A stretch of DNA of 64,000 nt from Siphonodentalium dalli (lineage: Eukaryota; Mollusca; Scaphopoda; Gadilida; Siphonodentaliidae). Below the pieces are notes generated by a model. It did not search any database, was not told the origin of the DNA, and saw nothing but the letters and a program-made list of their open reading frames with translations. Position numbers and translations under genes: made by a program. Location of the stretch: NCBI GenBank assembly GCA_032622095.1, contig CP136069.1:157161043-157225042 (forward strand), in the 5' to 3' direction. Every line of letters begins with the position of its first letter. Position 1 is the first letter of the stretch. Of the stretch, positions 1,391 through 61,353 are shown piece after piece.

Positions 1391-1694
1391 TTAACCTTTT
1401 CATGATGGGAGCTATGCTGGTGCAGCATTAAAGATCCTGTGCCAGTGCATTATCACCTCAGTTATTATCCATTCCACGACTGGAGCTTCTTTAAATTTTG
1501 CAAAAACCATGTGTCAATGCATTCTCTTATATATAACAGAATGCACTGGCTTACAAGGTAAATATTGTTAGGCCAACGTATTCTCTTATACATGTATATG
1601 CAAGGCTCCATATTGGAGATTCGCATATATAAGAGAATGCATTGGCACAGAGTTTTTTTTTAATTTCAGGAAGCTCCATTCATGGAAAGGTTAA
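1391..1694. mobile_element. Family A TTAA hairpin MITE, composite copy A1
   Basis: Family A begins TTAACCCTTTCATGATGGGAG and ends in an inverted version, GAAGGGTTAA, so it is flanked by TTAA as in piggyBac-type insertion. Its interior holds two ~69-bp hairpins of the form GCATTCTCTTATATATGCGAG and its complement. A1 starts with TTAA at 1391 and ends with TTAA at 1691. It contains a second internal end (about 1471, CCATTCCACGACTGGAGC), so it is a fusion of two partial copies. No protein is encoded. Confidence 0.75.
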
Positions 1695-3244: not shown

Positions 3245-3455
3245 TTAACCCTTTCATGATGGGAGCTGCACTGGTGCATCATTAAAGACCATGTGCCAGT
3301 GCATTCTCTTATATATGTGAGTCTCCCATAGGGAGCCTCGCATATATAACAGAATGCACTGGTCAACGTAAATATTGTTGGGCCAATGTATTCTATTATA
3401 TATGCAAGGCTCCCTATGGGAGACTTGCTTATATAAGAGAATGCATTGGAATACG
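3245..3455. mobile_element. Family A hairpin MITE, 3'-truncated copy A2
   Basis: It starts with TTAA at 3245 and has both hairpins (about 3294-3362 and 3390-3450), but the right terminal repeat and TTAA are missing. In its second hairpin the usual GCGAG/CTCGC stem segment is GCAAG/CTTGC. Both strands of the stem have changed together, which keeps the pairing. Confidence 0.75.
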
Positions 3456-4536
3456 GTTTTAGAATCATCTAAATATCTATCTGACAAAAAAAAAATAAAA
3501 AAAAATGTTAAGGTAAAAAATATTAGGACTCAGTATTTAAAAAAAACGTTTGGAGACAACACTCTGTGAATTTTAAAGGACCATCCAACAGTGTCATTTT
3601 TTATTTATAATCACACACTGTAACAAAAATATCATTGTTCTAATGTTGAACATCAGATCTATGTCCATAAAGTCCAAATCTTTGTGGAATTTTGTGTGAA
3701 GTGTTTTAATATTACTCAATGATAAATGACTGAAAGCATGAGCTACACATACCCGGTACTAGGATGGCAGCATTGGAAAATGCTGCAGTAAATTTCCTCA
3801 AAAAGAAAAAAAATTTTGAAGTCAAAATTAGTGAAAATGTAAGTTGAGTAGAAAAATATAATTCCCTCAGAATCTGTCAGAACAAATAAAAATTATAAAT
3901 TCAAAAGTAGTAAATATATCTGAGTAGAAAATAAATACTAAAAACGAACTTAATTGAACTGTAGTTGTATCATTATGAAGATAACAAAAACTGAAAGCAT
4001 ATGTTGTGATCCAGTACACTCTTAGGCTCAGATAGATTTTAATCTAAAAACAAATTGTGCACTAACTACCGGTTTGTCCACATCAAATGTTTTCATCACT
4101 TTTATTTTTCTGTGGAAATTTAAAGACATATTACACATTTATTTCACTGCATCAAACAGATCTTTTCCGACTCAATCACTACACTCATTTGAAGAATTCA
4201 TAATTAAACTATTACTGTGAAAATGTTCAATAACATCTACTGTGCCATTTCGTAAAACATGACGTTCAACTACCGTAAGCAGAAATATAAAAAAAAAATC
4301 TGTCGTTCATCACAAACAAATCACCAATAAATAAATTAGAATAATTTTGCGAATGAGAGTCACTTTATTTAATTTATACGAAAAAATGGCGTCATGTGCT
4401 GGCAATTTTGATACAAAAATATATTGAAATACCTGTGTTGAGCAAGGTTATTCGATATGAGCCGCAACAAAATATTTTCAGATCATTTAGATTTGTTCAT
4501 AAAAAAAAAACACAGAAACAACTCTCCAGATGCACA
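3456..4536. other. AT-rich intergenic DNA
   Basis: Very A-rich on the plus strand. No exon-like or repeat structure was recognised. Confidence 0.4.
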
Positions 4537-4939
4537 TTAACCCTTTACCCAACAAACAGGCCAAAAACGCCCAAATACAGCTTCAACAGCCTAAAATATC
4601 TTCGGTCTGTCTCAATAACACCATACAAATATGGATATCATTGGAACCGGTTCATTGACCACATTGTGATGGTTACAGTTATGCCCTGTGCCAATGCATT
4701 CTCTTATATATGCGAGTCGACCATAGGTCGCCTCGCATATATAAGAGAATGCATTGGCCTAAAAAAAATCTTTTTTTAACACTTTTTACCATTTTTTCTT
4801 ACAACAATTTTATAATTTTTTCTTACATTTTTAATATGTTAAGCCAATGCATTCTCTTATATATGCGAGGCGACCTATGGTCGACTCGCATATATAAGAG
4901 AATGCATTGGCACAGGGCCGTTGTTGGGTAAAGGGTTAA
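4537..4939. mobile_element. Family B TTAA double-hairpin MITE, copy B1
   Basis: Family B starts TTAACCCTTTACCCAACA and ends TGTTGGGTAAAGGGTTAA; the TTAA copies are at 4537-4540 and 4936-4939. Two 69-bp hairpins occupy 4690-4758 and 4843-4911. Read base by base, the second is the exact reverse complement of the first. Each is nearly self-complementary, with an off-centre core CGACCATAGGTCG and one T/C mismatch beside it. An AT-rich spacer lies between them. No protein is encoded; a piggyBac-like source transposase is inferred from TTAA and the CCCTTT start. Confidence 0.85.
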
Positions 4940-6298: not shown

Positions 6299-6508
6299 AT
6301 ATAATAATGCCAGAGATAGGTGAGGTCACCCACATAATGGTAATTCTAATGCTTGTTTCATGCAATAATCAGGCCTTAAAATCCATACTATTTTGCAAGA
6401 ATCAAAATATAGCATTTCTGTAGCGAATCAGCTGCTTTTACGAGAACCAAACTAAGAATCATGATTCTGGTCATGTTTTAAGCCCTGAATTTCAAGGAGT
6501 ACACTTTA

Positions 6509-6777
6509 TAAACCCTTCCATGACTGGAGCTTCCTGAAATTTTGTGAAAACCCTGTGCTATTGCATTCTCTTATATATGCGACTACAAGTCTCCCATGAG
6601 AGCCTCACATATATAAGAGAATACATTGGCATAGCAATATTTACTTTGACATGTAATCTGGGCATTCTCATATACCGTATGTGAGGTTCCCTATGGGAGA
6701 CTTGCAAAAATAAGAAAATGAACTGGCACAGGAACTTTAATGCTGTACCAGTGTAGCTCCCATCATGAAAGGGTTAA
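6509..6777. mobile_element. Family A hairpin MITE, copy A3 (reverse)
   Basis: It lies in reverse orientation: the CCCTTCCATGACTGGAGC end comes first and the ATGAAAGGGTTAA end last (TTAA 6774-6777). The left TTAA has decayed to TTATAA. The second hairpin (6665-6720) is strongly eroded. Confidence 0.75.
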
Positions 6778-10026: not shown

Positions 10027-10775
10027 TTACTCTCTGTCACCCATGTCACGCATGTCTGGTTCTTCAACTGGTGAGAATACCTGAGTGCATTCTCTGTCAC
10101 GCCTGTCTGGTTCTGGAACTGGTGCGAATAACTGAGCGCATTCTCTGAGCAGTTGAATGGTTGAGACCTCTTTGGCATCGTATTTGTCCCATAGGCTGAA
10201 GATTTTCCCCTGCATTGCCATGGTGTTCTTCTTTTGGCGACGCTTCAACTTTCCTTCACTCACCATCTTAATTGTTGTCGGAATCTCCTTGGCTTCGTGA
10301 TACAAAAGAGTCAGGAGGAGATACAGTGGTAAGTTCGCCTTCATCGCTCTCTGGTTGAGTTTATTGTGCCATCCTTCGACATCATTGTTGGTTCTTATGC
10401 TGCGTCCGAAGACTGACCATTCATCAACCGACCACACTGGGCTCTTTATCCAGGTTTTCTCAACGTATGCCATATAGTTGCTGACATGAGGTACCTGGCT
10501 GTCTACCTTTGCCTTCAGTCTGTCGAATGCGGCTGGGATGTCGGCGGCAGGCAGGAATGGAATGGACATGACGCGTCTGAGATGTTTGTGGATTCGGTCT
10601 CTTCTGTTGTAAGCAATCTGCAGCTTCTCGACTTGTAGATGTCGCCATAACGCTTGCCCAAAGTGGAAAGAACAGCCGTGGATGATTGGGTCGTTGAAGA
10701 CGGCTCTGATGCCTTGCCATAGTCCAGCCTCAAAGTCGAGCACGAAGGAAGGTGTGTTAACACGGCTTCGAAAAC
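10027..10775 (-). pseudogene. MULE-type transposase, C-terminal part
   Basis: The frame reads from a splice-acceptor-like TTTTCAG (rc of 10776-10782) to a stop at 10027, about 248 codons. Features typical of Mutator-like (MULE, PF10551-like) transposases are visible. FVLDFEAGLW contains the Asp/Glu of the central catalytic block. GCSFHFGQALWRHL is the Cys-x2-His segment that follows it. Further on is TNNDVEGWHNKLN, the conserved late motif. The N-terminal third, with the first catalytic Asp and any zinc finger, is absent. The C-terminus has short degenerate repeats (CTQVF, EPDMRD). The frame has no internal stop, so it is either recent or was selected until recently. Family assignment comes from these motifs alone; activity is unlikely without the missing half. 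Confidence 0.75.
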
Positions 10776-11249
10776 CTGAAAATAAATTATAGTTGATTTG
10801 AAATTTTTACATTTAGTTCTGCTCTTTGATTGATGACTGGTCAGTTGTTACAAGTGAACACAAGTAAGCTGACTAGATCACAAGATCAAATGGACCAACT
10901 GATTAAAACAACAATCGCTTTCAAAACAAACTCACACCTTCACTGTGAATGCCATGAGTAACAATCACTTTATTGCATCTTAACTGTGAATGCCCATAAT
11001 AACCATCACTTTATTGACTTTATTAACAATAAATATTCATAGAAATATATAAGATACAAATAAGATACAAATAAGAAATTAAAATAGTGACCTTCAGTTT
11101 TATAGATTGACAATATATTTTTTTTCATTTTTTTTTTTATTAACTGGTTGAAACATATCTAAAACATTTTTGAAGCAATAACATATATAAAACCAACAAT
11201 ATTCTATTATCAATGTTCTATTCTACTTATATATTTAATAAATATAACC

Positions 11250-22957: not shown

Positions 22958-23358
22958 TTAACCCTTTACCCAACAGAATGGCCCTGTGCCAATGCATTCT
23001 CTTATATATGCGAGTCGACCATAGGTCGCCTCGCATATATAAGAGAATGCATTGGCTTAACACATTAAAAATTATAAAATTGTTAAAGAATGTAAGAAAA
23101 AATGGTAAAAAGTGTTAAAAAAAGATATTTTTTTAGGCCAATGCATTCTCTTATATATGCGAGGCGACCTATGGTCGACTCGCATATATAAGAGAATGCA
23201 TTGGCACAGGGTATAACTGTAACTATCACAATGTGGTCAAGGAGCCGGTTCCAATGATATCCATATTTGTATGGTTCTATTGAGACAGACCGAAGATATT
23301 TTAGGCTGTTGGAGCTTTATTTGGCCGGTTTTGGCCGGTTTGTTGGGTAAAGGGTTAA
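22958..23358. mobile_element. Family B double-hairpin MITE, copy B2, inside RNase H
   Basis: TTAA at 22958-22961 and 23355-23358. RNase H reading lies on both sides, so TTAA is a true target duplication. The orientation is opposite to B1. The hairpins are at about 22986-23054 and 23137-23205. Confidence 0.9.
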
Positions 23359-31290: not shown

Positions 31291-31534
31291 TTAACCCTCT
31301 CTATTCTAAATACTCATTGCCCGGTAGTTCCCTTAGGAAATGTTCAGATAGGTCATTTGTTGAACTTATTATCGGGACATTTCCCCCATCAAGGGCTCCT
31401 TTGCACTTGTATTAGCTTGTCGCCTGTCTGTCATCTGCTGTTTTACCTGAACATGCCTTCAAATGAATAATAGACATTCCAATGAATACTTTGATAATTG
31501 AATTGGAGAAACCATTAAATAAATAAAGGGTTAA
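31291..31534. mobile_element. Family C MITE, copy C2
   Basis: TTAACCCTCTCTATTCTAAA at 31291 and AAATAAATAAAGGGTTAA ending at 31534. TTAA on both sides suggests the same insertion chemistry as families A and B. Confidence 0.7.
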
Positions 31535-33039: not shown

Positions 33040-33273
33040 TCAACCCTTTCATTATGGGAGTTGCGCTAGTTCGGCATTAAAGATCCTGTGCCAGTGCATT
33101 CTCTTATATATGCGAGTCTCACATATTTGAGAGAATTCACTGGCTTTGAACGTCAAGGTAAATATTGTTAGACCAATACATTCTCTTATATATGCAAGGC
33201 TCCCTATGTGAGACTTACATATATAAGGGAATGCATTGGCACAGTGTTGTTGCAAAATTCCACGAAGGGTTAA
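33040..33273. mobile_element. Family A MITE, copy A4
   Basis: The left TTAA has changed to TCAA; the right TTAA is at 33270-33273. The first hairpin has lost its centre (33094-33145); the second spans about 33172-33240. Confidence 0.75.
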
Positions 33274-34659: not shown

Positions 34660-34922
34660 TTAACCCTTTCATGACGGGAGCTGCGCTGGTGCAGCATTGA
34701 AGATCCTGTGCCAGTGTATTCTCTTAAATATGCGAGTCTCCCATAGGGAGCCTTGCATATATAAGAGAATGCACTGGCTTGCAAGGTCAAGGTAAATATT
34801 GTTAGACCAAGGCATTCTCTTATATATGCGAGACGCCCAATGGGCGAAATACATATATAAGAGAATGCATTGGCACAGGGTTTTCGCAAAATTTCAGGAA
34901 GCTCCAGTCATCGAAGGGTTAA
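34660..34922. mobile_element. Family A MITE, complete copy A5
   Basis: TTAA at 34660-34663 and 34919-34922. The second hairpin (about 34806-34874) has core CGCCCAATGGGCG where other copies have CTCCCTATGGGAG, again paired changes. Its last TTAA is shared with the next element. Confidence 0.85.
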
Positions 34923-38077: not shown

Positions 38078-38477
38078 TTAACCCTTTACCCAACAAAACG
38101 GCCAAAACCGGCCAAATAAAGCTTCAACAGCCTAAAAAATCTTCGGTCTGTCTCAATAGAACCATACAAATATGGATATCATTGGAACCGGCTCCTTGAC
38201 CACATTGTGATAGTTACAGTTATGCCCTGTGCCAATACATTCTCTTATATATGCGAGTCGACCATAGGTCGCCTCACATATATAAGAGAATGCATTGGCC
38301 TAAAAAAAATCTGTTTTTAACACTTTTTACCATTTTTTCTTACATTCTTTAACAATTTTATAATTTTTAATGTGTTAAGCCAATGCATTCTCTTATATAT
38401 GCGAGGCGACCTATGGTCGACTCGCATATATAAGAGAATGCATTGGCACAGGGCGCTTCTGTTGGGTAAAGGGTTAA
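38078..38477. mobile_element. Family B MITE, copy B3
   Basis: TTAA at 38078-38081 and 38474-38477. Hairpins at about 38231-38299 and 38381-38449, the pair being reverse complements except for single changes. Confidence 0.85.
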
Positions 38478-38630: not shown

Positions 38631-38880
38631 TTAACCCTTCCATGACATTGGAGCTTCTGAAATTGTGCAAAAATCCTGTGCCAATGCATTTTCTTATATA
38701 TGCATGTCTCCCACAGGAAGCCTTGAATATATAAGAGAATACATTAGCCTAACAATATTTACCTTGACCTTGTAAGCCAGTGCATTATCTTATATATGCG
38801 AGGCTCCCAATGGGAGACTCACATATTCGAGAGAATGCACTGACACAGGATATTTAATGCTGCAACTTGAGAAAGGTAAT
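38631..38880. mobile_element. Family A MITE, 3'-worn copy A6 (reverse)
   Basis: TTAACCCTTCCATGACATTG at 38631. Two degraded hairpins follow, then the 'ttaatgctgcaact' end region, with no right TTAA. Confidence 0.7.
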
Positions 38881-39974: not shown

Positions 39975-40190
39975 TTAACCCTTTAATGACTGGAGCTTCG
40001 CTGGTGCAGCATTAAATATCCTGTGCCAGTGCATTCTCTTATATACTTGTATATGTGAGTCTCCCAAAGGGAGCCTCGGAAATATAAGAGAATGCACTGA
40101 CTTAGAAGGTCAAGATAAATATTGTTAGAGAATGCATTTTGCACAGGGTTTTCGCACAATTTCAGGAAGCTCCAGTCATTGAAGGGTTAA
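39975..40190. mobile_element. Family A MITE, copy A7, at the 3' end of Sec22
   Basis: TTAA at 39975-39978 and 40187-40190. The first hairpin (about 40025-40096) is mostly intact and the second is reduced to a stub. It ends nine bases before the AATAAA signal of the Sec22 gene. Confidence 0.8.
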
Positions 40191-40198
40191 TAATAAGT

Positions 40199-43300: not shown

Positions 43301-46300
43301 ATCATTTATTATGAATTATACGTGTATCGCAATATGACGATATTTAAGGATTTGTATCGGTGCATGCATCGTGTGTTACCGTATCGCGATACACCGGTGC
43401 ATCGGTGTATCTTCCAACCCCTAGAAGCCACCAACACCTGGTAAGCTACATGTAGACCAAGTCTTCTCGGTCCACAACAGATTGGGATATCGGTTGGGAT
43501 GATGGTGTTTTGGACCGAGTTTCATCCCGTTACTCTTCTATAATGGTCTTTATGCCAAGAATCATGGGCAGGAGTTATCTTGCTTGTATGTGGAAGCTTT
43601 GTGTATATGAACATAGAAGACAGCATTTTCTAAGCATGATGATATAAAACATGCATATATCAGAGGTCCAATTGTCAAGAGATTTATAGGTAAACAATGC
43701 TTTTTTTCCCAGAGAATTTCGATTTGTCACGCTATCAGAAAATGCATGTAAACAATACATTAAACGATCGTATCATCACTATACCTTTTTCTATCATGGT
43801 AAATGATATATAATTTCCAAGATAAATTAATCGCGGACAATTCTGATGATTATTCACATGCAGAGGTTTACATGAATGCCTGGGATCCAAGTGTACATGT
43901 AGCATGTCTTTTGAATAAAAGTCCAATATAGAAGAGCAACAGGGCAGGACTCGATCCAAAACAGCATCATCCCAACCGATATCCCAAGCTGTTGTGGACC
44001 GAGAAGACTTGGTCTACTAGCAAGTATTATACTAAGTTAACATTAACTTGCCCGAATGCACGAATCTCACTCCATCAGTTTGCTTGGAACCAAGTCTGCA
44101 AATAGTGTGTCTGTCATTTGCAGAATGATGTCCCCAGAGACCAAATTTAGTATTGCTCCCACGCAGCAGGATATTACCAAATTCACCCTCTGGTGACCTC
44201 ATTTTGCATAGACCTGATCTTCTGGGAAGTATCAATAGTCTCAAATTAACATTGTTTTTAGTTACTTTTTCCCTTCTGTTCAGTTTCTATCTCCCTAATT
44301 TGCAGAATCTAAAAGCCATAACAAGGTGACTGATGAGTGAATATCACCAACTTAAACTGGGAAACTTCAATCTGATCCTAGGTCACCCATAGCAGCTGAG
44401 GCTTAAGCAGAATGAGGTTCCCAGATGGTGAATTTGATGACGCTAGCCCTTATTCTGGAAATGTAAAACCATATTTCCAGGCCTGCTTGGAACAGTGATC
44501 TGAGCTCATTGCGATTTGAAACAGCTTCACCACTGATGAACGACATGACATTTTATATACGATACGTCTTAGGGAAATCCACGTTGGAGGGGAAAAAAAA
44601 TTTGTTAAAATTTAAAAGCATTTTTCTGTCTTGTCACAAATGTTATACATCTTGAAGAACTTATACAAGAGGATCGGAAAATGCTCAGAAAATGTTCACA
44701 GCTGGCAGCAAGACAATGATGCTGAAGTGGGTATCAGAAAACTTTCATGATGGGAGCTGCACTAGTGCAGCATTACAGATCATGTGCCAGGAATTCTCTT
44801 ATATATGCGATTCTCCCATACAAGGTCAAGGTAAACATAGTCAGGCCAATGTATTCTCTTATATATGTGAGGCTCCCTATGGGAGAATCACATATATAAG
44901 AGAATGCATTGGCACAGGTGTTTTCGCAAAATTTCAGGAAGCTCCAGTCATATAACGGGAAATATGAGTCATTGAAATTGATGTGGCCAGATTATTCAAC
45001 CAATCACCATCAATGTTTTATTTCCACACGCTAAATGGAATTTCCCAAGCAGTGACCTCGAACATATGGAAACAATCGAAGCTTCTTACGTGTTTCCTCA
45101 AGCGAGGTTTTTAATTAACTACTTTACTTAACTAAACAAAAACAACATTAGCGAAAGTATTGTGTAGTATTATCAACTATATAGTTAAATATTTAAATAA
45201 ATAATAAAAGACAGTAATAGAATAACTGAAACGAAAACATATCAAAACAAACCATGAATCGTACCATCGGCATGTACTGCGAATCACTGAAACCGCGATG
45301 TATCGCTGCAGCCCTAGTGCCACAGCATTCTCTTGTATATGCAAGTCTCCCATAGGGAACCTCGCATATATAAGAGAATGCACTGGCTTACAAGGTCAAA
45401 GTAAATATTGTTAGGCCAATGTATTCTCTTATATAGGTGAGGCTTCCTATGGGCGACTCGCATATATAAGAGAATGCATTGGTACAGGGTTTTTGCCAAT
45501 TTTCAGGCAGCTAGTCATGGAAGGGTTAATCTTCTAAATAGAATTGCCCTTTACTAACTGAGCCACTTTTGGCAGCCGGACATGAATTGAGATCTTCTAT
45601 TTGAGGCCACTATTAAAGATCCTGATATTCACCAGATAGAGTTTCTCCCCTTTGAAGAACATCTTCTATGTTTTGCACCATAATTCTTTGTACGTCTTGT
45701 AGTTCATTGTTTATATTCCCTAGTGACTTTCTAGCTCTTGAGTCCATGTAGTTCTTTCGCGTTTTCTGTATGTAGGTATCTGCAATGAAAAAACACCAGC
45801 AAATACAGTAATAAATTTTAAGCCTCTTGATAACACAACTCTAGAAAAATCATACAATGGCTTTATAGAAAGAAGATAACTGAAATTCTCCAATTGTACT
45901 TTGGATGCTGGCATATACACCCACAGTGCTAAATGAGCAGGACGGAACCCAAATTTAAAATAAACAAAGAAGGATAACTATAGAAAGAATATGCAAACGT
46001 CATTTACCCCTAATTCAAAAGCAGTCATGATGGCAACCCTCCATATCAAATTTCATTCAGATTCAATAACCCAATTAGGCTGAGATATCCACACGGACGG
46101 ACAAAAAACTAAGATTTCCAGATAAACGAAGGATAACTCTGGAAAGGAAAATACTAACAACGTAATTTGCCCCTCATTTGAATGCAGTCATGATCGCGAA
46201 CCTCTATACCAAATTTCATTCTGACTTGATAACCCATAGTTGATATATCTGTGCGGACAAACAAATTTATTATTTCCCGATAAACAAGGAAGGATTCCAG

Positions 46301-49300
46301 ACCTCTTCTTGAAAAGTTTGCGAACACCATTTTATATCTATATAAGTGAATGTTAGCTCGATTTTACACATTGAGTGACATATATCTGACGTGTTTGTAC
46401 ATAGTTGTCAGTATTTCAGATCAGACATTGTCAATTAATATATACAAACATGTAGCAGCAAAAATATTGCTAAAAGTTTTGAAATTTGACATAACTTCTA
46501 TTGAGATCAATAAATGATGTGTGTAAACTATTCAAGAAGATGTCTTTGTTGGAATTTCCAGATAATGATTTGAATTTTCTGAGAAATTTATATGGAATGA
46601 ATTTACACCAATGTGCAAAGTGATTCTTAGATTATGACGTTGCCGTCAACAACAAATTGTATTTAGCACCCGGATCAGTAGTTGTAGGTGCAGATCAGGA
46701 CATTTGATTGTATGGCGTCATTCTACATATAAAAATAATTGGAAAACTGAAACTAATAGTATCATACAGAAACACAAAAATCAGCAAACGATGCAATTGT
46801 TTAGATTGCAAAACACACATTATTTAAATTGTTATCGGTTGTGGAACAACATTTCTATATTCTCAAAGTTTTATTGAAAGAGTGGTTTGTGGTCAGTACC
46901 AATACTTACCAAATTCTATAAAGCTGTAAGGACGAGACACTGTTTCCACTTTCTTTGAATATTGTGACTGAAATTCGGTCTGTAAATCCTCAAGATAAGA
47001 GTAAGCCAGCCTCTTAGAGAAAGATTTATCACAAAGAACCAAAACACACACTCCTTTCTCTATTAAGTAGCTGGAAATTAAATATCACATATTATACAAG
47101 GGTCAATTTAATTTTTTTGATTTGTATAGCATTTTGCAGCTCTTGGTAGGTTTTGTTTTGGATTCCCTACTGATACATGTTTTTTTTTACATTTTAAATA
47201 GGTTAGCAGAAATTGCAAATTGCATTGCAAATTGCGATGTGAATCCAGTTAAGTTGAGCCCTGATTATATATTCATCAATAATTACTCTCAAATAAAGGT
47301 ATCCTACTCTTGAAAAGAAAGTTTTTTTTATATGTTTTTTATAGATTCCCTACCAAAACATGTTTTTTTTTACATTTAAATATGTTAGCAGAAATTGCAA
47401 ATTGCATTGCAAATTGCGATGCGAATCCAGTTAAGTCGAGCCCTGATTATATATTCATAATATTACTCTCAAATAAACTTATCCTACTTTTGAAAAGAAA
47501 GTTTTTTTTCACATGCGCAACACATCATTAATATTGCTCATAGAGACAGAAAACACAGTTTAAGACTAGCCATTCAAGGTCAACGAATCAAATTCTTACA
47601 AATGAACCATCAATTTTTGGAGGCAAACTCAATAACACTACTTCAATCCTCAAACAAGTTGACTTGTAGATCCTAGGCTAATGTTGAATTATATATTATT
47701 ATGTCATAATAGAACGAGAGGCCAATCACGATTGGCAACCCATCCCTCGAAGATAGTAAATATCTATGATCAGAATCATAATCTAGAGTTTTGAAGTTTA
47801 TTTATTGATTATACTATTACTCCCAGGTGCCTAATAATAGTGTCAACACTATTATTATTTTTGGAGAAAATTTCTCCCAATCAATAGTATTTGGCAAAAA
47901 GAGGGAATGAACTTGCCATCACTATCATTAATTTTAGCCCAAAATCCCACCCATCACAATTATTAGACTACCACTATCATTAGGCATCTTAGAGTATGTA
48001 CTGAAGTAGTATGTACAAATGTACATAATAACACAAAATTCTCAGAAATTATTGGAATTTATGGGTCCTAGTGCCAATTTTGCAACAGTAGTGTCACTAT
48101 GACATCGGTAGGCATATAATAACATTGGGTTACCCTACGACCCCTAACCTGAGATGAATGAACACAGTCCATATCCTGCTAATCAGTATAGCTTCCAAGA
48201 GATTTGAAAATAGTTTGTCCATACAAAAGTGTTATCCATATAATGTTTATACAGCCATATAATATGATGAGAATTATACAACTGTAATACGATGAGGATG
48301 CTGGCCCCTCTGACCCCTAAATTGAAACAAGATTACCACAGTTCATATAAAAGAAAGTAAGTAGCACTCAATAAAATGGTTTCATCACAAATTACAGTGT
48401 TTTACAAGTAGCTTGGATGCTAAAATCCATAACCATCAGTGTTAATCTTCTTTCTAATGCTATTATGTGCCCCCTAAAATTCAATCAGCCATGACAATAT
48501 AAACAAAATGGACCCCCCCCCCCCTAAAACCACTGACATGTAGTGGTGTCAAGATTTGACACATTTGTGTTGCGGTATGATACCTATCGCTATACACATG
48601 CCATGATACGATATGTACCTAGATATATCTTGAGTCAATGATACCTATAGGCTATATGTGGTCATTCATTTAACCCAAATTAAGACATGGTACTATATAT
48701 GAGTGCCTTAAAAGGGGGGAATCCCATCCCAATGTGGGAATATATGTCGGAAGAATAAGATCGAGTCAAGTTGGGTGAGTATAGGCTATGCAGCTGTCAA
48801 CAATGTAAAAGAATATGGACTGTCACTGACACCAAACAAAGAAATGTTTTAAAGCCTAAAAAAAAGAAGACTTTTCTTTCCGCCAACAGGCTGGAAAAAA
48901 TAGGGACAGAAGGCAGGCAAAACATTTTTTTTATTAAACATTTTTTATTTTTCTATATTTTTAACAATAATACTTGATATTATGGACTTCTTAGTCTGAA
49001 GGTGGTCAACCCATGGGATATAGTTGTTCCAGAATCTCTCTATCACCGCAAGCAAACTCGATATGGTTTATGTTGAATGCTGACAACTCCTTAACTTTCA
49101 TTTAAACATTTGTCAAACGGCACCGACTCGGCCGATGTAAGGCACCTCACTATTATTTCTGAACGCATTTCACGACCTTTGACTGTTTGTTATGATAATA
49201 ATGCAAAGTTGTTATCAGATCTGAGATCTCATGACTTTTAAACGATATTGGGTAATAGACAGTCTTACTGAAGTCAGTCTTGTCCGGGTGGATTAAAAAG

Positions 49301-52092
49301 AAGAGTTCTTCAATTTTGGCTTCGTTGGTCTATCGATCTGATCTCTTTTTTGCTTCCGCTGTGGACACATTTGTCCAGATAGATAGCCACAACAACGTGC
49401 TAGCCTACGGAGGTAGCCATTGTTGCTGTTGTTGTGGTGTGAATTCTGTTTACTTTCCAAAGCACTGGCTGTTTTCAATGGGAGATATAGCTTGGTGCCC
49501 AGGCCAACAAACGTATTCTATCGGTATGAATTGAGTCACGGTACGAAACTATGGGAGATACGTATCTATTTATAGTATGTGGGTATTTCCACCGGAAGCA
49601 ACCGCCATGCTTTTATCTCTGTTAAATGCGTGAAACATTCACAGATACCATTATTTTTTCAGTTTTTCGATCACAATAAAAAGTTTAGACTCTGCGCTTT
49701 TAAATAGGGTCGGTCGGGTTAGCGGAAACAACACATCTATTTTTTTAGGCCTAATATAGGCAAGTATAATATTGGAATTTATGAATAAAATCCATAGACT
49801 TGTGCTTTTCATACCCAAAATGTCTATTACCCAATATCGTTTAAAAGTCATGAGATCTCAGATCTGATAACAACTTTGCATTATTATCATAACAAACAGT
49901 CAAAGGTCTTGAAACGCGTGAAGAAATAACTTGATTATCAATCACGCCGCTGACACTGAGTTATCGCAGTGTGAATTAACACGTGTCAATGTTCGTCGGC
50001 GTGCATTGGGCGTCTCTTGATGTTTGTGAATGCATGTATAGCCATAGATGTCTGATGTACATTACTGTGTTTAAAATGGTTTTCAATAAAATATGTACAC
50101 AATTTTCAGCAGCCCACAATCTATTAATCTAGTCTACGCTTACAGTTAGGCCACTGTACAGTAATACTGGGTCACATGCTCCTTGTATGAGTGCATGTAT
50201 TTGTAGGTTGAAACAATAATTAAAACAAACATATATGACTTGGTTCCTTTATCGGTTATCCCTTTACCCAACAGAAGGGCCCTGTGCCAATGCATTCTCT
50301 TATATATGCGAGTCAACCATAGGTCGCCTCGCATATATAAGAGAATGCATTGGCTTAACACATTAAAAATTATAAAATTGTTATAAAAGAATGTAAGAAA
50401 AAATGGTAAAAAGTGTTAAAAAGTGGCCAATGCATTCTCTTATATATGCGAGGCGACCTATGGTCGACTCGCATATATAAGAGAATGCATTGGCACAGGG
50501 CATAACTGTAACTATCAAAATGTGGTCAAGGAGCCGGTTCCAATGATATCCATATTTGTATGGTTCTATTGAGACAGACCCAAGATATTTTAGGCTGTTG
50601 AAGCTTTATTTGGCCGGTTTGTTGGGTAAAGGGTTATAGGGGATATTTTACATTTGATGGATTATAATTTCAGGAAATTTCATGGCAATTCATGCGGTGC
50701 TAAATTTAAGGGGAGCAATCAAAATTATAAGCACAGCAGTACAATACATAACCATACAGAAACCACGGAGATGTATCGAATGTATCTGAGTGTTATCTCC
50801 CTTGGAACAAACAAACCACTGCCTATATTCGTGCTATTGTAATTCACTAATTGGGATAAGTATTTAAACCTGTTTTGGTAGGTTTCGAGCAGGAACCATG
50901 TATTGTGATACACGATAGTTGCGTTTAGACTGATGCACATATCGTGAGTTTGCGCATCGGGTACACCGGTGTCCTGGTACATCGTTACACCACTACTGAC
51001 AATGTCTGACATGATAAACTGAAGACAGCCCTTTTCCAAATGCTCAATAGATTTTTGTTCATACATAGAAAAAAATAGCATTGATTTCTATTCTCAAGAT
51101 GAAATCCATGAAAACCCCATAGCCCTCAATGTTAATTTTTTATACCCCCAGTGGCCCCTAAAATTCACTCAACCATGACCCTATGAACAAATTATAAACT
51201 AGGTCTTATAGCAATATTCCGTACCAAGTATTAAGAAAATCTTGCTTGAATCAATCAAGTGACACAAAATAAGAGATATCAAGAAACCTCAAATTTGGAA
51301 AATTCTAAGTTGAAATAGGGCCATAACTCAGTAATAATTTTGGACCAAACTCATATTAGAACTTGACCTGGAATTTGGGCTTTGGTTTGGATCAAGAAAC
51401 ACAAACTTGAGTTATCATAAGGAAACCTCAAATCTGGATAATTCTAAGCCGAAAAAAGGGTCATATGGTAACTGAGTATAAAAAATACTCAGATCAAACC
51501 CATATTCGAACTTGATCTGGATTTTGGGCTGAGATATACCAAATTTGGTTCCAACGGATGGAAGATGTTTCAGTTATCACACCATGCGTAAAATGTCTAT
51601 GGACAGACAGACAGACGGATGGACGAATGATGACTGGTCAATCCGGACATCAACACTATCTATACCATAATATTTTATGGGTACACATAAAAATAAAAGA
51701 TGAAATAAAAATATTGAACTACCGGTACTTTATTGCCGCCTTAACCCTTCCATGATGGGAGCTACACTTGTGCAGCATTAAAAATCAAGTGCCAGTGATT
51801 TCTCTTATATATCCGAGTCTCCCATAGGGAGCCTCATATATATAAGATAATATATTGGCCTAACAACATTAACCTGGACCTTGTAAGTCAGTGCATTCTC
51901 TTAAATATAATATGGGAGGCTTCATACATGTATGTGGGATAACAGAATGCATTGGTACACAGACTTTAATACTCACTGAAATATATACGGTCCAGTTTCG
52001 AGGCTGCACCGCACTGGTGGGTGTGGATCTCCAGAAATCTTCCTGAACAACTTCTTAGCTTGGTCCTGGTAGTCGACCATGCTCCTCCCAGT
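40237..52092 (-). CDS. SEC22: Sec22-type R-SNARE, exons 2-5 (first exon not found)
   Basis: The product is the vesicle R-SNARE of the Sec22 family, which acts in membrane fusion between the ER and the Golgi. Four exons (52092-51977, 47070-46910, 45779-45633, 40391-40237) join in phase to 192 codons including the C-terminus. The joins give TTT-CA|C, TTT-G|AT and TCT-G|CT, all with GT-AG introns. Exons 2-3 hold most of the longin domain ([27 protein letters not shown]). Exon 4 holds the SNARE motif with [20 protein letters not shown], where the Arg of LQRG is the central-layer residue. Exon 5 holds [14 protein letters not shown] and a C-terminal membrane anchor ([20 protein letters not shown]). 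Animal Sec22b is about 215 residues, so about 20-25 N-terminal residues are missing. I scanned 52.1-64 kb on this strand and saw no exon 1. Introns carry many transposons. Confidence 0.93.
40506..40877. mobile_element. Family D MITE, complete copy D6, in Sec22 intron 4
   Basis: Both outer ends (GTGCAGCCTGTCATTTGCAG and TGACAGGCACACTAAACTCAG) and both motif pairs are present. The interior matches D5. Confidence 0.75.
40878..41282. other. Intron DNA
   Basis: Part of Sec22 intron 4; nothing recognised. Confidence 0.35.
41283..43423. mobile_element. Outer hAT-like element
   Basis: The ends are TAGGGGTGGGAAGATAC at 41283 and its near-complement GTATCTTCCAACCCCTA ending at 43423. Sub-terminal DNA is full of CGATAC/GTATCG words. 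Flanks read GAAGCCAG (41273-41280) and GAAGCCAC (43424-43431), an imperfect 8-bp duplication offset by two bases on the left. No transposase. It is split by the element at 41650. Confidence 0.7.
41650..42737. mobile_element. Inner hAT-like element with perfect 8-bp duplication
   Basis: GCATTTAT lies at 41642-41649 and 42738-42745. The terminal inverted repeat TAGTGATGTTCCGATAAT is identical for 18 bp at both ends, and ATCGGAATCGG words follow. The 1088 bp contain no transposase-like frame. It sits wholly inside the outer hAT-like element. Confidence 0.9.
43453..44016. mobile_element. TA-flanked MITE with ~95-bp inverted ends
   Basis: The left arm from 43455 (GACCAAGTCTTCTCGGTCC) and the right arm ending at 44014 pair for roughly 95 bp, through TGGGATATCGGTTGGGATGA. 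TA stands at both outer limits, suggesting a Tc1/mariner-type MITE. Confidence 0.8.
44090..44488. mobile_element. Family D MITE, copy D7
   Basis: GCAAATAGTGTGTCTGTCAT at the left and a degraded right end near 44488. Motif pairs at 44120-44205 and 44408-44450. Confidence 0.7.
44735..44961. mobile_element. Family A MITE, worn copy A8
   Basis: The left CTTTCATGATGGGAGCTGC and right TTCAGGAAGCTCCAGTCAT regions are present without TTAA. The first hairpin is half deleted; the second (about 44845-44915) is good. Confidence 0.7.
45316..45529. mobile_element. Family A MITE, 5'-truncated copy A9
   Basis: It begins inside the first hairpin and keeps both hairpins. It ends with AAGGGTTAA (TTAA 45526-45529). 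Confidence 0.75.
45633..45779 (-). CDS. SEC22: Sec22 exon 4
   Basis: Acceptor CATTGCAG and donor TCTG|GTGAAT. It encodes the main SNARE motif with the central Arg. Confidence 0.93.
45955..46290. repeat. ~165-bp tandem repeat in Sec22 intron 3
   Basis: Two units share GCAGTCATGAT, CAAATTTCATTC, GATAACCCA and CGGACAAAC... TTTCC.GATAAAC words. Confidence 0.65.
46291..46909. other. Intron 3 DNA
   Basis: Nothing further recognised. Confidence 0.35.
46910..47070 (-). CDS. SEC22: Sec22 exon 3
   Basis: Acceptor AATTTCCAG and donor TTTG|GTAAGT. It encodes the second half of the longin domain. Confidence 0.93.
47160..47515 (+). repeat. ~184-bp tandem duplication in Sec22 intron 2
   Basis: Two copies start at about 47160 and 47345 (GATTCCCTAC). 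They share TTAGCAGAAATTGCAAATTG and CGAATCCAGTTAAG and differ at a few sites. Confidence 0.85.
47516..48540. other. Intron 2 DNA
   Basis: A weak inverted pair (GGTGCCTAATAATAG near 47826 and CTATCATTAGGCATC near 47975) hints at a small MITE. A C-run lies at 48513. Nothing else. Confidence 0.35.
49174..49908. repeat. 87-bp perfect inverted repeat with 561-bp loop
   Basis: 49174-49260 and 49822-49908 are exact reverse complements when read base by base. A further ~25 bp outside (TTATTTCT ... ACGC) is nearly so. The loop has no clear gene. Confidence 0.92.
50256..50637. mobile_element. Family B MITE, copy B4, with TTAT flanks
   Basis: Both ends are bordered by TTAT (50256-50259, 50634-50637) where all other family B copies have TTAA. 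Hairpins at about 50287-50355 and 50427-50494. Sequence otherwise close to B2. Confidence 0.85.
51170..51640 (+). repeat. ~140-bp tandem repeat with (GACA)n end
   Basis: Two units (about 51284 and 51424, AACCTCAAATTTGG / AACCTCAAATCTGG) include AGGGCCATAACTC. They end at a GACAGACAGACAGACGGATGG tract at 51603, the arrangement of a dispersed repeat often seen in molluscs. Confidence 0.65.
51741..51970. mobile_element. Family A MITE, copy A10, touching the exon 2 donor
   Basis: TTAACCCTTCCATGATGGGAG at 51741. Two eroded hairpins follow, then the family's 'cacagg.ctttaat' segment, which ends against the Sec22 exon 2 donor (51972-51976). No right TTAA. Confidence 0.7.
51977..52092 (-). CDS. SEC22: Sec22 exon 2
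   Basis: Acceptor ATCCTTAG and donor TTTCA|GTGAGT. It encodes [20 protein letters not shown] and [10 protein letters not shown], the first half of the longin domain after the missing exon 1. Confidence 0.9.
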
Positions 52093-58021: not shown

Positions 58022-58199
58022 CCCCAAACTAAACTACTACTTCGCGACACGGACTCAGTATGAGTGTTCATTGCTTCATATTTGCTTATATATAATAACT
58101 AGCAGGTTAGCCCGCCACTGGCGGCGTTCGTCAGAAACATGACAATTTTTTTTTTTATAATTAATTAAATTATTTATCCGGGGCAAGATACATTCACAT

Positions 58200-61100
58200 A
58201 GCAAATTTCAAGTCGATAGCTCCACCCGTTTCCGAGATCTCGTCTGCGCATGCGCGAAGCTGGCGTCGCACGGGCTCGGCGACCCGATAAAATTCGTATC
58301 CGGGGCAAGATACATTCACATAGCAAATTTCAAGTCGATAGCTCCACCCGTTTCCGAGATCTCGTCTGCGCATGCGCTGCACGGGCGCCGCACGGGCTCG
58401 CCAATACGACAACGTCCACCGCCTGGTCAAACTACACACACGTACCAAGTTTCGTCCCGATCGGTCGAGAATCGTAGATTTGTACAAATGACAGACATAC
58501 AAACATACAGAGGACTTCAAAATATATATGAGACTAGCCGATGAGCCCGACGTTGTCCGGGCTATTCAAAAACAAAATTTCAAGTCGATAGATCTACCAG
58601 TTTCCGAGATCTGGTCTGCGCATGCGCGAAGCTGGCGTCGCACGGGCTCGGCGACCCGATAAAATTCGTATCCGGGGCAAGATACATTCACATACCAAAT
58701 TTCAAGTCGATAGCTCCACCCGTTTCCGAGATCTGGTCTGCGCATGCGCAAAGCTGGCGTCGCACGGGCTCGGCGACCCGATAAACTTCGTATCCGGGGC
58801 AAGATACATTCACATACCAAATTTAAAGTCGATAGCTCCACCCGTTTCCGAGATCTCGTCTGCGCATGCGCTGCACGGGCGCCAAACGGGCTCGCCAATA
58901 CGACAACGTCCACCGTCTGGTCAAACTACACACACGTACCAAGTTTCGTCCCGATCGGTCGAGAATCGTAGATTTGTTTAAATGACAGACATACAAACAT
59001 ACAAACATACAGAGGTCTTCAAAATATATATGAGACTAGCCGATGAGCCCGACGTTGTCCGGGCTATTCAAAAACCAAATTTCAAGTCGATAGTTCCACC
59101 CGTTTCCGAGATCTGGTCTGCGCATGCGCGAAGCTGGCGTCGCACGGGCTCGGCGACCCGATAAAATTCGTATCCGGGGCAAGATACATTCACATACCAA
59201 ATTTCAAGTCGATAGCTCCACCCGTTTCCAAGATCTCGCCTGCGCATGCGCTGCACGGGCGCCGCACGGGTTCGCCAATACGACAACGTCCACCGCCTGG
59301 TCAAACTACACACACGTACCAAGTTTCGTCCCGATCGGTCGAGAATCGTAGATTTGTACAAATGACAGACATACAAACATACAGAGGTCTTCAAAATATA
59401 TATGAGACTAGCCGATGAGCCCGACGTTGTCCGGGCTATTCAAAAACCAAATTTCAAGTCGATAGATCTACCAGTTTCCAAGATCTGGTCTGCGCATGCG
59501 CGAAGCTGGCGTCGCACGGGCTCGGCGACCCGATAAAATTCGTATCCGGGGCAAGATACATTCACATACCAAATTTCAAGTCGATAGCTCCACCCGTTTC
59601 CGAGATCTGGTCTGCGCATGCGCGAAGCTGGCGTCGCACGGGCTCGGCGACCCGATAAACTTCGTATCCGGGGCAAGATACATTCACATACCAAATTTAA
59701 AGTCGATAGTTCCATCCGTTCCGAGATCTGGTCTGCGCATGCGCGAAGCTGGCGTCGCACGGGCTCGGCGACCCGATAAACTTCGTATCCGGGGCAAGAT
59801 ACATTCACATAGCAAATTTCAAGTCGATAGCTCCACCCGTTTCCGAGATCTCGTCTGCGCATGCGCTGCACGGGCGTCGCACGGGCTCGCCAATACGACA
59901 ACGTCCACCGTCTGGTCAAACTACACACACGTACCAAGTTTCGTCCCGATCGGTCGAGAATCGTAGATTTGTATAAATGACAGACATACAAACATACAAA
60001 CATACAGAGGTCTTCAATATATATATGAGACTAGCCGATGAGCCCGACATTGTCCGGGTTATTCAAAAACCAAATTTCAAGTCGATAGCTCTACCCTTTT
60101 CCGAGATCTGGTCTGCGCATGCGCGAAGCTGGCGTCGCACGGGCTCGGCGACCCGATAAAATTCGTATCCGGGGCAAGATACATTCACATACCAAATTTC
60201 AAGTCGATGGCTCCACCCGTTTCCAAGATCTCGCCTGCGCATGCGCTGCACGGGCGCCACACGGGCTCGCCAATACGACAACGTCCACCGCCTGGTCAAA
60301 CTACACACACGTACCAAGTTTCGTCCCGATCGGTCGAGAATCGTAGATTTGTACAAATGACAGACATACAAACATACAGAGGTCTTCAAAATATATATGA
60401 GACTAGCCGATGAGCCCGACGTTGTCCGGGCTATTCAAAAACCAAATTTCAAGTCGATAGATCTACCAGTTTCCGAGATCTGGACTGCGCATGCGCGAAG
60501 CTGGCGTCGCACGGGCTCGGCGACCCGATAAAATTCGTATCCGGGGCAAGATACATTCACATACCAAATTTCAAGTCGATAGCTCCACCCGTTTCCGAGA
60601 TCTCGTCTGCGCATGCGCGAAGCTGGCGTCGCACGGGATCGGCGACCCGATAAAATTCGTATCCGGGGCCAGATACATTCACATACCAAATTCCAAGTCG
60701 ATAGCTCCACCCGTTTTCGAGATCTGATCTGCGCATGCGCGAAGCTGGCGTCGCACGGGCTCGGCGACCCGATAAACTTCGTATCCGGGGCAAGATACAT
60801 TCACATACCAAATTTCAAGTCGATAGTTCCACCCGTTTCCGAGATCTGGTCTGCTCATGCGCGAAGCTGGCGTCGCACGGGCTCGGCGACCCGATAAAAT
60901 TCGTATCCGGGGCAAGATACATTCACATACCAAATTTCAAGTCGATAGCTCCACCCGTTTCCGAGATCTCGTCTGCGCATGCGCGAAGCTGGCGTCGCAC
61001 GGGATCGGCGACCCGATAAAATTCGTATCCGGGGCAAGATACATTCACATACCAAATTCCAAGTCGATAGCTCCACCCGTTTCCGAGATCTGGTCTGCGC

Positions 61101-61240
61101 ATGCGCGAAGCTGGCGTCGCACGGGCTCGGCGACCCGATAAAATTCGTTCCGGGGCAAGATACATTCACATAGCAAATTTCAAGTCGATAGCTCCATCCG
61201 TTTCCGAGATCTCGTCTGCACATGCGCGAAGCGGTTGCCG
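58200..61240 (+). repeat. ~122-bp tandem array, 20 monomers in six blocks
   Basis: Each monomer reads ATACCAAATTTCAAGTCGAT, AGCTCCACCCGTTTCCGAGA, TCTGCGCATGCGC, GAAGCTGGCGTCGCACGGGC and TCGGCGACCCGATAAA. It then reads TTCGTATCCGGGGCAAGATA. TGCGCATGCGC sites lie near 58248, 58368, 58618, 58740, 58860, 59118, 59246, 59490, 59612 and 59734. They continue near 59856, 60115, 60237, 60487, 60609, 60731, 60975 and 61097; two more monomers have it mutated (60853, 61219). Blocks of 2, 3, 2, 4, 2 and 7 monomers are separated by a linker with CCGATCGGTCGAGAAT and GACAGACATACAAACATACA. Confidence 0.9.
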
Positions 61241-61353
61241 CACGGGCTCGCCAATACGACAACGTCCACCGCCTGGTCAAACTACACACACGTACCAAGT
61301 TTCGTCCCGATCGGTCGAGAATTGTAGATTTGTATAAATGACAGACAAATATA

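Follow-up and report, generated by a model that had tools for sequence, protein, structure and literature searches.

A paired 69-bp hairpin in high-copy, probably piggyBac-type TTAA elements

Background

The nearest precedents for the elements described here are the coral CMITEs, as regards a common interior, and the bacterial REPINs, as regards paired hairpins. In their published description, CMITEs are TTAA MITE families that resemble one another more in the interior than in the TIRs, and tandem arrays are reported; the main text of that paper does not contain the word "hairpin" (PMC2872659). The present elements resemble them in that different TIRs enclose a common interior, the hairpin of our family B being shared by three frameworks (B, C and D), and differ in that the common part is a near-perfect 69-bp hairpin, of which each element has one or two and which is found in a framework that is not of the TTAA type as well. 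Where tandem arrays are reported for the corals, a regular spacing of long units is seen here among the matches listed. REPINs consist of two inverted palindromes and a spacer, and are described as showing compensatory changes and as linked to tyrosine transposases (PMC3116915). Paired inverted palindromes with a spacer are common to both systems, the compensatory changes reported for REPINs being a further parallel, but REPINs are bacterial, with smaller palindromes and tyrosine transposases, whereas our elements lie in an animal-like genome and have TTAA ends.

Two further systems share part of this design. The repetitive hairpin elements of sponge mitochondria are dispersed, fall into two types that differ by complementary substitutions and form double hairpins, as do the elements studied here; they are, however, mitochondrial, and the relevant parts of their description give no TIR or target-site duplication (PMC2800124). 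Palindromes close to the transposon tips are also reported for piggyBac and piggyBat, where subterminal palindromes of ~14-19 bp are bound by the C-terminal domain of the transposase (PMC11707139), whereas the hairpins here measure 69 bp, with 33-base arms, and any binding is putative. With piggyBac-type TTAA MITEs in general, the elements share TTAA duplication, CCCTTT ends, high copy number and a length under 500 bp, too short for a transposase; what sets them apart is that two long inverted hairpins occupy much of the element. An earlier note on this DNA had known of no described TTAA MITE of this design. Our search of the open-access literature (Repbase and most subscription journals being outside its scope) likewise found no TTAA MITE with paired long hairpins, although, as far as their descriptions were consulted, the common interior is shared with coral CMITEs and the pairing of palindromes with REPINs.

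Results and discussion

Elements in the window

The window, that is, the whole 64,000-nucleotide stretch of DNA analysed, contains 14 elements, ten of family A and four of family B (BLAST with seven A and B queries; Table 1), several of which are shortened or rearranged. They lie at the places where the earlier note had counted at least fourteen copies, and the same search returned an extra 26-bp match at 47180 (E 0.002). The B element at 4537-4939 has perfect terminal repeats of 19 bp. Its two 69-bp hairpins (4690-4758 and 4843-4911) are, as the note had claimed, exact reverse complements of each other and nearly self-complementary, Watson-Crick pairing being present at 32 of the 33 stem pairs. 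The sole exception is a T/C mismatch adjoining the core, with T in the outer and C in the inner arm when the TIR-side arm is read first, both in the B hairpins and in the A consensus. Its retention in both families, also claimed, is thus true of the B hairpins and the A consensus but not of a few A copies, from which the mismatch has gone. A strand of this element folds at a predicted -128.75 kcal/mol (z = -22), and none of 100 shuffles was equally stable.

Table 1 Elements of families A and B, and the hairpins of one B element, in the window
Feature	Position	Strand	Remarks
B element, complete	4537..4939	+	TTAA on either side; left flank long, right flank short
B hairpin 1	4690..4758	+	Mismatch T in outer arm, C in inner arm; loop ATA
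B hairpin 2	4843..4911	-	Exact reverse complement of hairpin 1
B element, complete, reversed	22958..23358	-	
B element, complete	38078..38477	+	Two unpaired changes in left hairpin
B element, complete	50256..50636	-	TTAT/TTAT flanks, not TTAA; one unpaired change in left hairpin
A element, composite	1391..1694	+	Left end, then extra right end (by eye), then shortened chimeric hairpin
A element without right end	3245..3473	+	Hairpin 2 GCAAG/CTTGC, CpG-type changes
A element, reversed	6506..6777	-	
A element	33040..33273	+	Core missing from hairpin 1
A element, complete	34660..34922	+	Hairpin 2 with A' core CGCCC/GGGCG
A element, reversed	38631..38864	-	Left end truncated
A element	39975..40193	+	Left TIR right-end-like for ~20 bp, then left-end sequence (by eye); without second hairpin
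A element	44742..44951	+	Ends degraded; without first hairpin
A element without left end	45310..45530	+	Hairpin 2 core unpaired, CGCCC/GGAAG
A element	51741..51970	+	Left end left-type; interior reversed (by eye); truncated far end weakly left-like; hairpins chimeric

Other features of the window are a frame at 10030-10806 (-) related to MULE-type transposases (40 matches, the named ones mostly from molluscs, crustaceans and corals, the best-scoring ~56% identical across 83% of the frame) and, at 58175-61250, a tandem array whose unit is 122 bp and which also shows longer periods of 372-380 bp. Unmatched AAGGGTTAA ends, whose neighbouring sequence is similar by eye, occur at 31525, 35171 and 36392 and perhaps belong to another TTAA family.

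Class of element

TTAA stands on both sides of the B elements in 35 of 36 rows and in 34 of 35 distinct elements, one row being a duplicate because locus L001, since dropped from the sample, repeats a window copy (4541); rows had to show both B ends within two mismatches, and A and C were left out. The remaining element, at 50256 in the window, has TTAT on both sides and is likely a non-TTAA insertion. The tips read TTAA-CCCTTT...AAAGGG-TTAA in A, B and C, many A copies having CCCTTC or decayed tips. A terminal CC[C/T]T motif has been given as a criterion for piggyBac-type TTAA MITEs (PMC2872659); the tips of A, B and C carry this motif, and the B elements show the TTAA target-site duplication. 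Kolobok elements are described as duplicating TTAA too, but with termini 5'-RR...YY-3' (PMC9587614), and since the termini here are 5'-CC...GG-3', with tips beginning 5'-CCCTTT, membership of Kolobok was rejected and the piggyBac type is indicated. We consider it probable that A and B, with their high copy number, are non-autonomous piggyBac-type (TTAA) DNA transposons organised around a modular hairpin, a grading that applies to the explanation developed below as a whole. Pfam searches with eight of the 67 window frames of at least 90 aa gave two weak matches, both under the cut-off. An autonomous element sharing the CCCTTTACCCAACA, CCCTTTCATGA or CCCTTTGAGTGCC ends would name a candidate mover. 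A structured RNA gene was also considered and rejected, Rfam at gathering score giving 0 matches in the window.

Copy number in the genome

The 2.227-Gb genome (nine chromosome-sized contigs) contains 141,351 instances of the stem TATATGCGAG-N15-CTCGCATATA, whatever its 15-base core, and 0 of the reversed control, so that chance is excluded. The exact B core, T side first, accounts for 113,695 of these stems, distributed as 57,010 and 56,685 by strand. In twenty 10-kb stretches taken at regular intervals from contigs C1-C5, A or B sequence formed 28 BLAST clusters. The exact stem was found 0 and 0 times in the viral_contigs and genome_contigs collections, from which records close to the window's genome are possibly excluded, and the single candidate for an annotated protein containing the element had no match at E up to 1.

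Some local arrangements deserve mention. On contig C1 of genome G000, pairs of B hairpins recur every ~14.5 kb (~742-786 kb) and every 11.18 kb (~837-916 kb) among the matches listed, a spacing (~14.6 and 11.2 kb) which suggests, within those matches, arrays of long units that each hold one B element rather than arrays of the element itself. Loci L004 and L008, ~1.5 Mb apart on contig C6, have a B element and adjoining A hairpins in common and are probably one duplicated stretch, their rows being non-independent. In L067, a truncated B element lies between an apparent direct repeat of ~20 bp of host sequence.

Cores and subfamilies

The description of A and B as different cores on a common stem was borne out for the stem and for both cores. 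These are CTCCC/GGGAG in A and CGACC/GGTCG in B, and a third, CGCCC/GGGCG, defines A'. A and B are separated by two paired changes, at pairs 30 and 31; between the left and right hairpins of A there is one paired difference, at pair 5, and one that is unpaired, at pair 8, with C/A in the right consensus. The A' core at 34829-34841, which the earlier note had read as a paired change within A, is present there but is a recurrent core rather than a private change, with 118 exact copies genome-wide. The 16 of these that were read are right-hand hairpins of A elements: 15 match the A right end outside the hairpin at a loose cut-off (in L077 the right end is shortened, by eye), and the A spacer passes a loose test in all 16. 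Hairpin 1 was found in 14 of them, in some cases degraded, and a paired A' core in none of the 14, that of L073 having, in our own reading, an unpaired CGCCC/GGGAA. This restriction to right-hand A hairpins in the copies read makes A' look like a single subfamily event in one hairpin. At L003:2520-2750, assigned to the A framework by eye, pair 30 is G/T in one hairpin and A/C in the other, as G/C would be with one CpG-type change each, and pair 31 is T/T in both hairpins.

The paired core differences are real and belong to subfamilies, not to single copies. The simplest arrangement is a series A, A', B, alongside which unpaired forms exist (45310 in the window, L073 and L003). An origin of each core in one event, an outcome that the earlier note had set against its own reading, looks likely given this series and the position of A' in the copies read. 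The unpaired forms bear on a two-step compensatory selection at the level of source elements alone, in which an unpaired intermediate would be followed by a second change selected in amplifying copies. Unpaired G/A at pair 30, seen in hairpin 2 of the 45310 element and, in our own reading, in one L073 hairpin, would suit such a path, as would the T/T of L003, but each of these unpaired states may be a private change, and we hold the two-step course to be possible but doubtful. The T/T of L003, an unpaired state in both hairpins, also counts against the explanation that we prefer.

Decay of the hairpin in resident copies

Paired changes had suggested to the earlier note that the hairpin is maintained. 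In resident copies this claim fails. The 17 A hairpins of the window have 50 outer and 53 inner changes, with 8 double changes against 7.83 expected under independence, and shuffling of partners gives P 0.74 for paired doubles and P 0.16 for Watson-Crick cells; this test omits three broken hairpins (the first of 1391, the second of 39975 and the first of 44735). With four broken ones removed, 7 doubles are left, where shuffling gives 5.9 on average (P 0.34). With the fetched loci included, 40 A hairpins have 12 doubles against 13.2 expected and 7 paired doubles against a shuffle mean of 7.9 (P 0.72), the 17 A hairpins of the regular-interval sample have 1 double against 5.0, and 85 B hairpins have 0 against 0.29. 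Four A-framework hairpins (L003:2564, L003:2659, L031:7663 and 34806 in the window) were reassigned from B to A on the basis of their flanks. When the best-matching reference is the sole criterion, the 36 hairpins classed as A have 6 doubles where 11.0 are expected, and the 89 classed as B have 3 paired doubles, where shuffling gives 0.39 on average (P 0.01; P 0.013 for Watson-Crick cells); all three disappear after the flank-based move, which was chosen post hoc.

The GCAAG/CTTGC form at 3402-3428, also cited as a paired change, is indeed present but equals two CpG-type transitions. In a set of 36 A hairpins, pair 25 shows three double states beside single states of 7 and 4, and pair 24 shows one beside single states of 8 and 7. 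Independent decay would give roughly these numbers, so that CpG decay accounts for GCAAG/CTTGC. A further comparison was made genome-wide against the 113,695 intact B cores, for CpG transitions at a single partner pair and a single control pair. At outer 30, G to A is the sole change in 1,156 cores and, at its partner, C to T is the sole change in 1,297, and both are changed in 30 cases against 13.2 expected (odds ratio 2.27). For the non-partner CpG at inner 25, C to T is the sole change in 1,073 cores, and it accompanies the change at outer 30 in 24 cases against 10.9 expected (odds ratio 2.20). The quotient of the two odds ratios is 1.03 (95% CI 0.60-1.78); that both exceed 1 is in keeping with copies that differ in age. 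Stem changes are therefore paired at chance level, an outcome that the earlier note had itself named as contrary to maintenance. In addition, private changes common to both hairpins of one element number 3 against 2.5 by shuffle in 51 pairs, where exchange or homogenisation between the two hairpins of resident elements is not seen.

Within these samples, inserted copies decay regardless of pairing and no structural constraint is visible. Selection on each inserted copy to keep its hairpin, whether as a DNA cruciform or as an RNA fold, would agree with the paired cores between families, but it is at odds with chance-level pairing within copies, with a partner pair that behaves as a non-partner pair genome-wide, and with decay within the two B groups defined below, where hairpins (0.4-0.9%) come close to the long flank (0.7-1.0%), though the spacer changes faster (1.7-3.2%). 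This reading is largely refuted and we consider it very improbable.

Constancy between B source lineages

Selection or arm-to-arm conversion, the two causes that the earlier note had offered for maintenance, thus find no sign in resident copies, but a different picture emerges between lineages. Across 44 B elements, deviation from the majority is 1.0% in the hairpins, 2.6% in the long flank and 4.9% in the spacer. This sample is non-random, with 27 best matches to the window copy, nine hairpin-picked loci, four elements from the regular sample and four from the window; the hairpin-picked loci have one hairpin base changed and the remaining 35-mer intact, which affects the hairpin figures. Clustering by the long flank gives groups of 27 and 12 copies, five single copies being excluded, and the smaller group comprises five picked, three regular, three window and one best-match copies. 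Fixed differences between the groups number 0 of 19 positions in the TIR, 7 of 129 in the long flank, 5 of 70 in the spacer, 1 of 24 at the right and 0 of 137 in the hairpins, that is, 13 of 242 outside against 0 of 137 inside (hypergeometric P 0.0026 in this non-random sample). Within the samples, then, two B subfamilies with diverged flanks and spacer show no change in the B hairpin, which recurs in C and D. These conserved hairpins, together with the paired cores and the joined ends described below, leave room for a constraint on source elements or for copying between arms.

Joined ends and possible template switching

The left side of the element at 51741 scores 86 as a left end against 47, and its truncated far end is weakly left-like too (27 against 21). 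In this element and in those at 1391 and 39975, sequence from both ends is joined (partly by eye). Template switching among inverted arms would be expected to leave joins of this kind in rearranged copies, and it has been put forward in the literature as a source of compensatory changes in hairpins (PMC8794818). A purely mutational account could draw on both points: palindromes would correct themselves by template switching in replication, and their uniformity would reflect recent transfer and amplification without selection. It agrees further with the age of the B copies, which are young (three CpG sites, each changed at ~1%). The persistence of the T/C mismatch in A and B speaks against it, as do the 13 fixed differences that separate the B subfamilies outside the hairpins and nowhere inside, and we regard the account as plausible while falling short of probable.

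The B hairpin in other frameworks

Two further frameworks carry the B hairpin, in identical or near-identical form. Framework C, in which TTAA is followed by CCCTTTGAGTGCCAGG, has one hairpin (L034:2446 and L047:880), and framework D, with an unrelated TIR, GTGACCCGCCATATCAAATCC, has two around a different interior. The two complete D copies that were read (L042 and L007) are flanked by AAAT or ATTT on both sides, a 4-bp duplication. Twenty B hairpins on C1, picked from 100 among the matches listed, comprise 14 in B, three in C, two in D and one unassigned. The right A hairpin has the flanks ACCCTGTG and CTAACAAT in common with C and D, and this sharing points to A as the likely source of the cassette. 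C-like ends without a hairpin were found at L047:5490-5728 and in L004. The former is a TTAA element of ~240 bp, mostly palindromic and lacking the cassette. In the D element at L042:4177-4560, the second hairpin holds an internal duplication of ~25-35 bp.

The cassette might instead be mobile itself, having been inserted into frameworks A to D, with the composite then amplified. One-hairpin C (L034 and L047) existing alongside hairpin-free C-like relatives, and the similar cassette edges in C and D, are in keeping with this. By eye, though, no target-site duplication was noticed at the cassette edges, the hairpin-free C departs from a clean empty site, and the common flanks reach beyond the hairpin as though copied from A. 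We think a mobile cassette unlikely.

Proposed origin and maintenance of the hairpin

The explanation that we prefer is that of MITEs with a modular hairpin and, with cassette transfer and constancy at the source level included, we judge it probable as a whole. The hairpin would have arisen in framework A, from which recombination or template switching may have copied it into the other frameworks. Source elements would keep it constant because it may help amplification in cis, possibly by being extruded or by offering a site to a transposase or host factor, and a rare change could become paired through copying between the arms of one hairpin. For the source-element hairpin we favour a mixture of cis constraint and templated copying, the two being inseparable here. 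Complete arm-to-arm copying has against it the T/C mismatch in A and B and the C/A mismatch of the right A consensus; the T/C mismatch and the few private changes common to the two hairpins of one element likewise argue against the copying of whole arms.

The reasons why certain MITEs become extremely numerous are poorly understood. The changes in the hairpins studied here advise caution, as compensatory-looking changes in MITE hairpins may be independent CpG decay together with a few subfamily events, and a count of partner against non-partner pairs tells these from compensation. A hairpin that occurs in unrelated frameworks and stays constant across source lineages while the flanks drift makes a cis-acting role directly testable. 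Tentatively, and as an idea that we hold to be reasonable rather than probable, the 69-bp hairpin may be a portable amplification cassette, adopted by MITEs with different ends (those of D apparently served by another transposase), invariant in each active lineage and standing behind well over 100,000 hairpins.
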